37,701 nucleotides of DNA from Gammaproteobacteria bacterium (GTDB taxonomy: Bacteria > Pseudomonadota > Gammaproteobacteria > GCA-001735895). Below, piece after piece: positions 18,487 to 21,045 of this stretch (position 1 is its first letter; every line of letters starts with the position of its first letter). A model generated the notes under the pieces. The model saw nothing but the letters and a program-made list of their open reading frames with translations, was not told where the DNA came from and searched no databases. The position numbers were made by a program, and so were the translations under genes. The DNA lies in the NCBI GenBank assembly GCA_030066335.1, contig JASJBV010000009.1, forward strand, positions 1 through 37,701. The letters are read 5' to 3'.

Positions 18487-19422
18487 TCAGTCCATGTACA
18501 ATGAACTGACAGATTCTTCAAAGTGAATGCGGCGAATGGTTTCAGCCAGCATCCAGCCTATCGATACCGTGCGAATCTTGTCGCAGGTCTTGGCCTCGTC
18601 GGACAGCGGTATCGTGTCGGTGACAATTAACTTGTTAATCACCGAGTTGTTCAAATTCTCGATCGCGTTGCCTGACAGTACCGGATGGGTACAGTAGGCA
18701 AATACGCCGGCAGCATCATGATCCTTGAGCGCCTGTGCCGCCTTGCACAGGGTGCCCGCGGTATCGACCATGTCATCGACGATGATACAGGTCTTGTTAG
18801 CGACATCACCGATGATGTGCATGACCTGGGCCATATTGGCCTTCGGTCGACGCTTGTCGATGATCGCCAATTCGGCGTCACCCAGTTGCTTGGCCACCGC
18901 CCGGGCTCTGACCACGCCGCCGACATCGGGGGACACCACGATCATATCCGGGTATTTCTGTTTCCAGATATCACCCATCAGGATCGGTGACGCGTAAACA
19001 TTGTCCACCGGCCGATCGAAGAAGCCCTGGATCTGGTCGGCATGCAGATCAACCGTCAACACCCGGTCCACGCCGACGCTGGTCAGCATGTTGGCAACCA
19101 CCTTGGCGGTGATCGGTACCCGCTGCGAACGTACCCGTCGGTCCTGCCGGGCATAACCGAAGTACGGGATGACCGCGGTGATGCGATAGGCCGAGGCCCG
19201 TTTCACCGCATCGATCATGACCAACAATTCCATCAGGTTATCGTTGGTCGGCTTACAGGTCGGTTGTACGATGAAAACATCCTTACCGCGGACGTTGTCA
19301 CGTATCTCTACCGATATCTCCCCGTCGCTGAAACAGGTGACACTGGCCTGCCCCAGGGGGATATCCAGGTGGCGGGTAATTGCTTTTGCCAGCTCGGGGT
19401 TGGCATTCCCCGTAAACAGCAT
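18487..19422 (-). CDS. prs: ribose-phosphate pyrophosphokinase (PRPP synthetase)
   Basis: Makes PRPP from ribose 5-phosphate and ATP for nucleotide, histidine and tryptophan synthesis. The protein is about 311 aa from the chosen start. Visible are [10 protein letters not shown], the catalytic [13 protein letters not shown]-type loop, and the PRPP-binding segment [11 protein letters not shown] prefer the ATG at 19420-19422 ([11 protein letters not shown]) because AGGA lies about 5 nt upstream and it aligns with the family N terminus; the frame also allows an ATG nine codons earlier, at 19449, with no clear ribosome site. Its leader contains tRNA-Gln-derived repeat units, so its message probably arises from a transcript processed at the tRNA. 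Confidence 0.95.
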
Positions 19423-19480
19423 TATGTCCTGTGTAACGTTACCGACCATCTGGGTTCTACGCTAATAGTAAAAACATCGT

Positions 19481-19600
19481 TGGGCCGGCAGGATGATGTC
19501 GGGCGTCCTGCCCTCCACCCTGCGGGTTGCTCACATGCGGTCGCAATGCAAAATCGTTCCAGACGATTTTGTCGAACCTTTACGGTTCGAACCCTGCCCA
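19481..19600 (-). repeat. tRNA-Gln-derived structured repeat, unit D (prs-proximal)
   Basis: The unit begins TGGGCCGGCAGGAT, the 3' end of tRNA-Gln, and closes with a complementary CCTGCCCA end. Inside are several hairpins: GGCAGGA/TCCTGCC, CAAAATCGT (19549-19557) with ACGATTTTG (19563-19571) around TCCAG, and GAACC (19574-19578) with GGTTC (19584-19588). No D-arm or anticodon arm is present, so it is not a tRNA. It lies in the prs leader. Confidence 0.75.
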
Positions 19601-19653
19601 CTCAACTATCCTGCATAATGACATCAAGCTGGATAACGAGCTTTAAATAATGG

Positions 19654-19766
19654 CTGGGCCGGCAGGATTATGTCAGACTGCGTCCTCCACCCTTCGGGCC
19701 AGCGGAGCTGTTCAACTTTGGAAAAACACAAAGTTGTCGAACCTTTAAGGTTCAAATCCTGCCCAG
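19654..19766 (-). repeat. tRNA-Gln-derived structured repeat, unit E
   Basis: Begins with CTGGGCCGGCAGGATT and shares the flank AATAATGG with the intact tRNA-Gln, then carries the same inserted multi-hairpin design as unit D. CAACTTTG (19713-19720) pairs with CAAAGTTG (19729-19736), and GAACC (19739-19743) pairs with GGTTC (19749-19753). The ends CTGGGCC and GCCCAG close the structure with a 4-nt offset. The hairpin sequence differs from units B and D but pairing is kept. Confidence 0.75.
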
Positions 19767-19814
19767 TCGTCTGATCTTAATCAAAACCTACCGGGACAAC
19801 AGCATTCCAAATAA

Positions 19815-19889
19815 TGGCTGGGCCGGCAGGATTCGAACCTGCGCATGCCGGGATCAAAACCCGGTGCCTTACCGCTTGGCGACGGCCCA
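19815..19889 (-). tRNA. tRNA-Gln (TTG), with encoded CCA
   Basis: The minus strand gives an intact cloverleaf: acceptor TGGGCCG with CGGCCCA, discriminator G and encoded CCA (19815-19817). The D-arm contains CCAAGCGGTAAGGC, the anticodon stem-loop is CCGGG-TTTTGAT-CCCGG with anticodon TTG, and the T-arm is GCAGG-TTCGAAT-CCTGC. It lies between ispE and prs, its usual place in gammaproteobacteria. It is the only intact member of the local array. Confidence 0.96.
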
Positions 19890-19907
19890 ATTAATCTGTA
19901 CTTTCTG

Positions 19908-20064
19908 AATCCTGCCTCCATCCGGCAGGATTATCTCGGGCGTCCTGCCCTCGGCCCTTCGGGCTGCTCCCGATGGTCGCAATGCTAAGTTGTTCCATAC
20001 AACTTAGTCGAACCTGCGCATACCGGGATCAAAACCCGGTGCCTTACCGCTTGGCGACGGCCCA
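19908..20064 (-). pseudogene. tRNA-Gln copy (unit B) split by a 76-bp insertion in the T-loop
   Basis: From the 5' end at 20064 the copy matches the intact tRNA-Gln through acceptor, D-arm, anticodon (TTG) arm and the first half of the T-arm (GCAGGTTCG). Then 76 bp (19933-20008) interrupt the T-loop before AATCCTGCC. The insert contains CTAAGTTGT (19985-19993) paired with ACAACTTAG (19999-20007). The 3' acceptor strand is lost and replaced by a perfect hairpin, AATCCTGCC (19908-19916) and GGCAGGATT (19924-19932). It cannot form a normal acceptor stem. Confidence 0.8.
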
Positions 20065-20083
20065 ATAAATCAGTTCTTTTTGC

Positions 20084-20183
20084 ATCCTGCCACTTTCCGC
20101 AGGATCATCTCGTCGAACCTGCGCATGCCGGGATCGAAACCCGGTGTCTTACCCCCTGGGAGTAAGAGAGGCGCGACGGCCCA
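20084..20183 (-). pseudogene. degenerate tRNA-Gln copy (unit C) with anticodon TCG
   Basis: The 5' TGGGCCGTCGC and the anticodon arm match tRNA-Gln, but the loop is TTTCGAT, changing the anticodon from TTG to TCG (an Arg anticodon). The D-arm is expanded by about 14 nt, and the T-loop holds a short remnant of the unit B insert (GTTCG-ACGAGATG-ATCC). ATCCTGC (20084-20090) and GCAGGAT (20099-20105) form the same type of 3' hairpin as in unit B. It is the first unit after ispE in the direction of transcription. Confidence 0.75.
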
Positions 20184-20202: not shown

Positions 20203-21045
20203 TTAGTCTATACAAGCGTCTGTGACAGGATTGGTGTTCAGCCCCTGGACAACATACCCAGACCACTTTTCGGGTAGCCGAGATTTTACGCTATATGCCT
20301 TTTCTGCACTATCGAAAGCGGCAAATATACAGGCACCGGTTCCTGTCATTCTGGCCTGGCCGAATTGGTCCAACCAGTCGATCGCTTGCTGTATCTCCGG
20401 ATACAGTTTAGCGGCCACCGGCTGGCAGACATTACTGCCCGCACCTTCCAGAAAGGCGCGTATTGTGATGGGATGGCAATCCCGTGTCAAATCCTGCGCG
20501 GAAAAAACCTGTGCCGTCGAGACAAATATATTCGGATGCACAATCAGATACCAGGAATCGGGCAGATCCAGGGCGGTCAGATGTTCACCAATCCCTTCAC
20601 CCCAGGCATTGCGGCCGAAGATAAATACCGGCACATCGGCCCCCAATTGGAGACCGATCTGCTGTAATTTTTCGGTCGATAAATCAAGTTGCCAGAGTTG
20701 GTTCAGCGCCATCAGCGTGGTGGCTGCGTCCGAGCTACCACCACCGAGACCGCCACCCATCGGTATCTGTTTATCGATCTGGATATCAACTCCTTGCGCA
20801 ACCTCGTATTGCCGTTGCAACAGCTTTGCCGCCTTCACCGTCAGGTCGTCTGCTTCCGCCACTGCGGAATTGGCACTATTGCGGGTGATTTCGCTGTCTT
20901 CGCGGATAGTAAATGTCAGTTGATCATACAGGCCGATTAAGCGGAACACCGTCTGCAGTTCATGGTAACCGTCGTCACGGCGTCCGGTGATATGCAGCAT
21001 CAGGTTGACCTTGGCCGGTGACAACAAACGCAGCGAGTTTGTCAT
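20203..21045 (-). CDS. ispE: 4-diphosphocytidyl-2-C-methyl-D-erythritol kinase
   Basis: A 280-aa GHMP kinase that phosphorylates CDP-methylerythritol in the non-mevalonate isoprenoid pathway. The N-terminal SPAKVNLMLHITGRRDDGYH is the substrate/ATP region, and the GHMP glycine-rich motif PMGGGLGGGSSDAA is at about residues 91-104. Length is normal. It starts one nucleotide after the lolB stop, so translation is coupled, and it is followed by the tRNA-Gln array and prs. Confidence 0.97.
   Translation of the reverse strand: MTNSLRLLSPAKVNLMLHITGRRDDGYHELQTVFRLIGLYDQLTFTIREDSEITRNSANSAVAEADDLTVKAAKLLQRQYEVAQGVDIQIDKQIPMGGGLGGGSSDAATTLMALNQLWQLDLSTEKLQQIGLQLGADVPVFIFGRNAWGEGIGEHLTALDLPDSWYLIVHPNIFVSTAQVFSAQDLTRDCHPITIRAFLEGAGSNVCQPVAAKLYPEIQQAIDWLDQFGQARMTGTGACIFAAFDSAEKAYSVKSRLPEKWSGYVVQGLNTNPVTDACID

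Follow-up and report, generated by a model that had tools for sequence, protein, structure and literature searches.

The gap between ispE and prs in a gammaproteobacterial draft genome holds an array of units derived from tRNA-Gln, and it raises the question of what the folded sequence inserted into them is and where it came from. The window, which here means the whole stretch of 37,701 nucleotides that was analysed, is one contig of this genome (230 contigs, 82% complete). A preliminary description had reported five tRNA-derived units with a hairpin insert whose stem covaries, and had offered two readings, a tRNA-parasitic small element or a leader-RNA module of prs. The observation was real, and its coordinates and letters were verified. 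On the minus strand the order was ispE, pseudogenes A and B, the intact tRNA-Gln(TTG), units E and D, and prs (Table 1). Five units were present, but they are of different sorts, and only the tRNA-Gln gene is complete, as had been stated. Units A and B, pseudo-tRNA variants lying upstream of this gene, retained tRNA-Gln sequence from the 5′ side as far as the T-loop. Units D and E lay 3′ of it on the same strand, lacked the 5′ tRNA half and had on their left side a T-arm copy in inverted orientation (GGCAGGAT..GAACC). The 3′ end of unit E, 18 nt long (ATCCTGCCGGCCCAGCCA), was identical to that of tRNA-Gln at 18 of 18 positions, and unit D kept this end for 14 nt only.

Table 1. Features of the ispE–tRNA-Gln–prs region in the window. 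R1 is the covariance model built from seven core copies of the same genome.
Feature	Position	Strand	Evidence and remarks
ispE	20203..21045	-	ORF; IspE relatives across gammaproteobacteria; neighbour upstream of the array, same strand
Unit A, tRNA-Gln pseudogene with altered D-region	20099..20183	-	Sequence; T-loop GGTTCGA joined to CGAGATG and ATCCTGC
Unit B, tRNA-Gln pseudogene with core in T-loop	19907..20064	-	5′ half intact to GGTTCGA; truncated 3′ end ATCCTGCCGG, then GGCAGGATTC
Core copy of unit B	19932..20007	-	R1 74.2 bits (B in seed); H1 loop ATGGA, H4 loop AGGAC
Intact tRNA-Gln (TTG) with CCA	19815..19889	-	ARAGORN; Rfam tRNA 64.7 bits
Unit E, RtT-type: P1 GGCAGGAT/ATCCTGCC, P2 GAACC/GGTTC, core, 3′ end	19651..19764	-	Rfam RtT RF00391, 31.2 bits, E = 6e-4; fold z -3.2
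Core copy of unit E	19669..19736	-	R1 41.4 bits, E = 9e-9 (E outside seed); loops without GGA
Unit D, RtT-type: P1, P2, core, 3′ end ATCCTGCCGGCCCA, then lost	19481..19599	-	RtT 18.1 bits, weak; fold z -3.4
Core copy of unit D	19495..19571	-	R1 75.4 bits (D in seed); H1 CAAAATCGT-CTGGA-ACGATTTTG; H4 GGGC-AGGAC-GCCC
prs	18487..19449	-	ORF and translation, named from sequence; neighbour downstream of the array, same strand

Unit A is a deletion remnant of a B-type unit from which the core was removed. Pseudo-tRNA-Gln units like A, with the T-loop core retained, were found upstream of tRNA-Gln in two relatives (L135 in G006 and L140 in G008). In most of 80 named ispE loci, tRNA-Gln lay just behind ispE, and judging from these loci the ispE–tRNA-Gln order is an old one. 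The ispE-prs gap of Acinetobacter (L070, L087) held four complete tandem tRNA-Gln genes, not one. Upstream of tRNA-Gln in another relative (L138, G012) there was a 5′ tRNA-Gln fragment whose D-region was broken by a hairpin insert of another sort (GATGAGGATCAGGAAATGACATTTAACATGTCATTT), with the direct repeat GGGCCGGACGCAGCTACAGGGATGTAAGAATGCGCCACAAATAAA on either side.

The insert, hereafter the core, was joined at one point of the T-loop in all three of units B, D and E (GGTTCGA^ATCCTGCC, that is, TTCGA^ATCC), in agreement with the preliminary description. It was 68-77 nt long and formed four hairpins, namely H1, H2, CCCGNAGGG and H4. The H1 stems were CTAAGTTGT/ACAACTTAG in B, CAAAATCGT/ACGATTTTG in D and CAACTTTG/CAAAGTTG in E; they differ in sequence and yet each pairs perfectly, as had been noticed. 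The loop TCCA(G/T) reported earlier was present as well, and is better given as the plus-strand reading of NTGGA, the apical loop on the strand presumed to be transcribed. Units D and E did share the GAACC/GGTTC stem (P2) and the closing stem (P1), which together correspond to the inverted T-arm copy. D and E folded better than shuffled sequences (z values in Table 1), and B did so modestly (z = -2.05).

The claim that the stems covary was borne out. In the seed alignment of seven copies, double changes occurred in 12 of the 22 pairs, a number that 0 of 500 shuffles reached and for which slid controls gave 0-3, and 92.9% of the cells were paired (32-42% when slid). With 127 copies from relatives, double changes were seen in 22 of 22 pairs, 94.8% of the cells were paired compared with 24-47% in slid controls, and the covariation score was 0.612 compared with 0.03-0.07; this alignment was fitted to the model and is biased towards it, and related copies also inflate the covariation figures. 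The slid controls nevertheless lie very far below these values, and pairing and compensation are far beyond chance. Among orthologous first units behind tRNA-Gln within one genus, H1 was TAAAATCGT/ACGATTTTA (G001), TAACTTTGT/ACAAAGTTA (G003, G007) and the stem of unit E in the window, with several pairs differing and every one of them compensated. Such a pattern could also come about if one core copy replaced another in its entirety. Moreover, G.U pairs made up 1.6% in core stems compared with 5.0% in the tRNA stems of the same loci (Fisher p 4e-12). This scarcity hints that the palindrome is held, at least in part, at the DNA level, by mobilisation or template switching. These results support a folded form, either RNA or single-stranded DNA, that is under constraint or is itself the form that is copied.

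tRNA-linked repeats (TLR) date back in the literature to 1978, chiefly through the E. coli examples, and had no established function or origin. The preliminary description missed this kind and its identification was to that extent incomplete: the array is firmly assigned to the TLR, of the kind held in Rfam as RtT, at a tRNA-Gln locus, by its anatomy and by homology in both directions, although the window copies miss the Rfam cut-off. The RtT model (RF00391) matched unit E end to end and unit D weakly, both below its gathering score of 45 bits. In relatives the same model was found in 13 of 30 genomes and exceeded the gathering score in two (46.6 and 46.2 bits), both from the family of the window genome and both with the match behind tRNA-Ser. 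Of 14 control genomes, E. coli alone was positive. A tRNA (Ser, Gln or Val) was present at 12 of the 14 RtT-matched loci examined from the relatives, and at most of these loci the unit repeated the 3′ end of its own tRNA letter for letter. Where a tRNA preceded a core seated in a T-loop, the 17 nt that follow the core agreed with this tRNA at 16 or more positions in 33 of 51 cases, compared with 0 of 1998 comparisons with other tRNAs. This is the defining property of TLR, in which 18-19 bp of the 3′ end are identical to the upstream tRNA or rRNA (PMC8144298).

In the other direction, R2, a model built from 127 R1 matches in relatives and including no E. coli sequence, matched the three tyrV repeats and the tyrT-tyrV spacer repeat of E. 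coli (E 2e-6 to 6e-4). It also matched the rrnB T1-T2 repeat (RrB) with 76.1 bits (E 2.6e-17), in which the repeated 5S 3′ end harbours the core, once more preceded by GA (GTAGGA^core^AACTGCCAGGC). Among the selected tRNA and rRNA loci of E. coli K-12 that were searched, R2 had no match at the proL, proM and leuV regions. E. coli K-12 carries 22 tRNA-linked repeats at ten loci, and the tRNA-linked members have no known function, an early claim of a stringent-response role for the tyrT repeat having been withdrawn (PMC8144298).

A search by covariance model, which the preliminary description had proposed, found further copies both in the own genome and in relatives. With B and D in its seed and E outside it, R1 matched the own genome 24 times when E values up to 0.1 were allowed; 21 of these matches, unit E among them, had E below 1e-6. 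The same model found the core in 23 of 30 relatives. With R2, the core was detected in 169 of 369 sampled gammaproteobacteria, about half, and in 94 of 398 genomes of a phylum sample, of which 54 lay outside the class and mostly in one family; in both of these broad surveys a genome's core count is a lower bound once it reaches 12-13. Cores of the own genome lay at tRNA-Gln, Arg-CCT, an Arg/His/Leu cluster with tRNA-Pro 3′ ends, Ser-GGA and Lys, and others far from tRNAs. Across genomes the units adjoined Ser, Arg, Val, Pro, Lys, Tyr and other tRNAs, and cores were seated in T-loops and tRNA-Ser D-loops, in tandem, nested and within other repeats, often inside broken tRNA copies. The suggestion of a tRNA-parasitic small element came close, as the core is a dispersed module often found in tRNA T-loops and D-loops. 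Upstream of tRNA-Ser(GGA) in the own genome (L005/L008, C205), a duplicated 5′ tRNA piece (TCTGGAGAGGTGTCCGA) bore a core and was followed by another core and a tRNA-Ser-like piece. A further dispersed repeat (GCGCGGCCAAATCGGGGTCGGTCCAGACGCGGGTCCAACCGCGACTGGACC...) lay near two other cores of this genome (L003 and L004; C190 and C111).

The sites themselves showed signs of insertion. Three cores lay head to tail within one T-loop in G007, one core was nested in the CCCGA^AGGG of another (L041), and in tRNA-Ser fragments the core lay in the D-loop (GAGTGGCTGA^). At 98 non-redundant other sites, position -2 was G or C in 89, position -1 was A in 91 and position +1 was A in 75; the junction bases lie within the covariance model, so these figures are upper bounds, and the GA..A signal may partly reflect selection by the search. 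The C204 copy interrupts a dispersed repeat of another kind, and the joined flanks (CTCGCA^ATGACG) aligned across the junction with at least six uninterrupted copies of equal length in the same genome. By comparison with these empty sites, nothing was lost and no target duplication was visible at C204. In G140 and G264, where many copies score equally, the core lay inside larger repeats, which may carry it and do not fix its ends; in G264 (L341-L352) many near-identical larger repeats (CCCCCTCTCCCTCTGGGA^core^CAGGGATGGGGTGAGGG...) bore the core, as if it were hitch-hiking. Decayed copies were also found, namely unit A and the second unit in G001. This anatomy indicates that the core is probably a non-autonomous, dispersed element and that it was inserted on many occasions, in the own genome as in relatives. 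The tRNA-linked/RtT repeats are a known kind, and in the open-access literature no description of their core as a dispersed insertion module was found. A general targeting of hairpin loops, suggested by the T-loops and the nested copy, was rejected: a hairpin of at least 5 bp surrounded the junction at 8.4% of 95 other sites, compared with 11.5% in controls.

GGA in a hairpin loop is the recognition element of CsrA/RsmA. It was present in the H1 apical loop of 154 of 164 distinct cores, which had 79 different H1 arms, and in the H4 loop of 141 of 182. In the window, B and D had GGA in both H1 and H4 loops and E in neither. Both loops had it in 33 of 62 cores downstream of tRNAs compared with 60 of 97 away from them. 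Of the 30 genomes searched, 29 had csrA, as did the own genome, and the core-bearing G026 (75% complete) had no detected csrA. In several relatives about 1 kb or less separated csrA from a core (G006:C140, G008:C176, G010:C430, G012:C63, G027:C114 and G029:C104), at tRNA-Ser loci in several of these cases. csrA beside tRNA-Ser is an old gene order, so its proximity to the core may be incidental. At non-tRNA sites, the orientation of the core relative to neighbouring genes had no clear bias. For the binding of CsrA by RrB an overall Kd near 100 nM has been reported, and changing three GGA abolishes it (PMC8144298). By this precedent and from their own loops, B and D might bind CsrA as well, a prediction that we make tentatively. 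Against it stand the GGA-free loops of unit E and the low scores of the E. coli tRNA-linked members as CsrA RNAs (PMC8144298).

Taken as a whole, the TLR array at tRNA-Gln probably formed around a dispersed hairpin module. The core (~70-77 nt, four hairpins) would enter the T-loops of tRNA-Gln copies at TTCGA^ATCC, and each repeat would be a copy of part of the tRNA with a core in its T-loop. Insertion would take place at GA^A or CA^A without visible target duplication, at a site that T-loops and tRNA-Ser D-loops offer. Tandem units at one tRNA probably arose afterwards, when the repeated tRNA 3′ ends recombined with each other. The units lie on the same strand as their tRNA and are very probably co-transcribed with it. 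In B and D, but not in E, both outer hairpins have GGA loops, which would then be predicted to bind CsrA/RsmA, as for the 5S-linked RrB, and some core copies are likely kept as CsrA/RsmA-binding RNA.

Other explanations were weighed against this reading. The array immediately precedes prs, in the same orientation, and could be imagined as a leader RNA regulating this gene, the second reading of the preliminary description. However, the same units occur at many unrelated tRNA loci, the core was in the ispE-prs gap of only 1 of the 80 named ispE loci (L041), and several relatives that share this gene order lack it. A prs-specific leader was rejected on these counts and is hardly credible. A non-autonomous element of the REP/RAYT or IS200/IS605 type would likewise be small, palindromic and dispersed without visible target duplication, and Y1 transposases occur in 26 of the 30 relatives, but no core lay within 1.5 kb of any of 30 Y1 loci examined, the own genome has about 21-24 cores against one Y1 gene, and the GTAG foot typical of REPs was not seen in the core. 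RAYT mobilisation was rejected for want of linkage, and an origin of this type seems quite improbable. The perfect stems might also be unselected, being quasi-palindromes perfected by intrastrand template switching in replication, which changes both arms at once. The 619 two-sided Watson-Crick changes against 39 G.U cells, with few one-sided intermediates, fit such a process, but it leaves unexplained the conserved GGA loops, the lengths and the four hairpins kept together across the class, and we regard it as unlikely.

More weight falls on two other readings. The core could be wholly selfish: an insertion element without a host function that depends on structure and moves as single-stranded DNA or via RNA, its hairpins and GGA loops being recognised by the mobilising enzyme and its copies decaying after insertion. 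The dispersal of cores to non-tRNA sites, the tandem, nested and decayed copies and the scarcity of G.U pairs agree with this, as does the finding that GGA in both loops was at least as common away from tRNAs as downstream of them. Against it stand the perfect compensation in orthologous units of one genus, which suggests continued constraint in place, and the CsrA-binding RrB, which with RrA and RrF is kept downstream of 5S in 12 enterobacterial genera (PMC8144298). The purely selfish reading is a real possibility that falls short of being probable. Alternatively, the tRNA-linked units could be processed from tRNA transcripts and act as CsrA/RsmA decoys that bind via two GGA hairpins, by which free CsrA/RsmA would be tied to tRNA transcription. 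The GGA kept in both outer loops while the stems differ, the wide presence of csrA, in places close to a core, and the RrB precedent (PMC8144298) argue for decoys. Only about half of the tRNA-linked cores have both loops, however; the nearness of csrA may be incidental, orientation at non-tRNA sites shows no clear bias, and G026 bears cores without a detected csrA. A decoy function is therefore conceivable and deserves to be taken seriously, though we would not expect it with confidence.

If the core is viewed as an insertion module that is dispersed and follows a simple rule at its junctions, it would give the tRNA-linked repeats an origin, join the tRNA-linked and 5S-linked members, and predict which copies bind CsrA, all three of which can be tested in E. 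coli and other laboratory strains. In a wider and somewhat doubtful extension, the tRNA-linked repeats and the 5S-linked RrA/B/F would be insertions of one mobile mini-element across a large part of the Pseudomonadota, which would seed CsrA/RsmA-binding hairpins into tRNA and rRNA transcripts and let tRNA output feed Csr/Rsm regulation in many lineages.

Among known systems, REP/REPIN sequences with their RAYT transposases are likewise short dispersed palindromes, whereas the core has no linked RAYT, has different ends and is often seated in tRNA loops. The decoy RNAs CsrB/CsrC and RsmX/Y/Z also carry GGA in hairpin loops, but units B and D have only two such loops each and no unit is a dedicated gene. 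The RtT repeats of E. coli tyrT-tyrV (rttR) share with the array the unit plan P1-P2-core-tRNA 3′ end, the T-loop insertion point, the 3′ end copied from the upstream tRNA and a tandem spacing of ~175 nt (TLR criterion ~178 bp; 174 and 164 start to start in the window). They differ in that the window copies score below the Rfam cut-off, lie at tRNA-Gln and have a different H1 and H4, and the tyrV repeats, unlike B and D, have loops without GGA. RrA, RrB and RrF, which lie between the rrn terminators of E. coli, are linked to 5S rRNA and not to a tRNA, and expression and CsrA/Hfq binding have been reported for them (PMC8144298). They nevertheless have the same core, GGA in two loops, a repeated 5S 3′ end and the junction GA^A.
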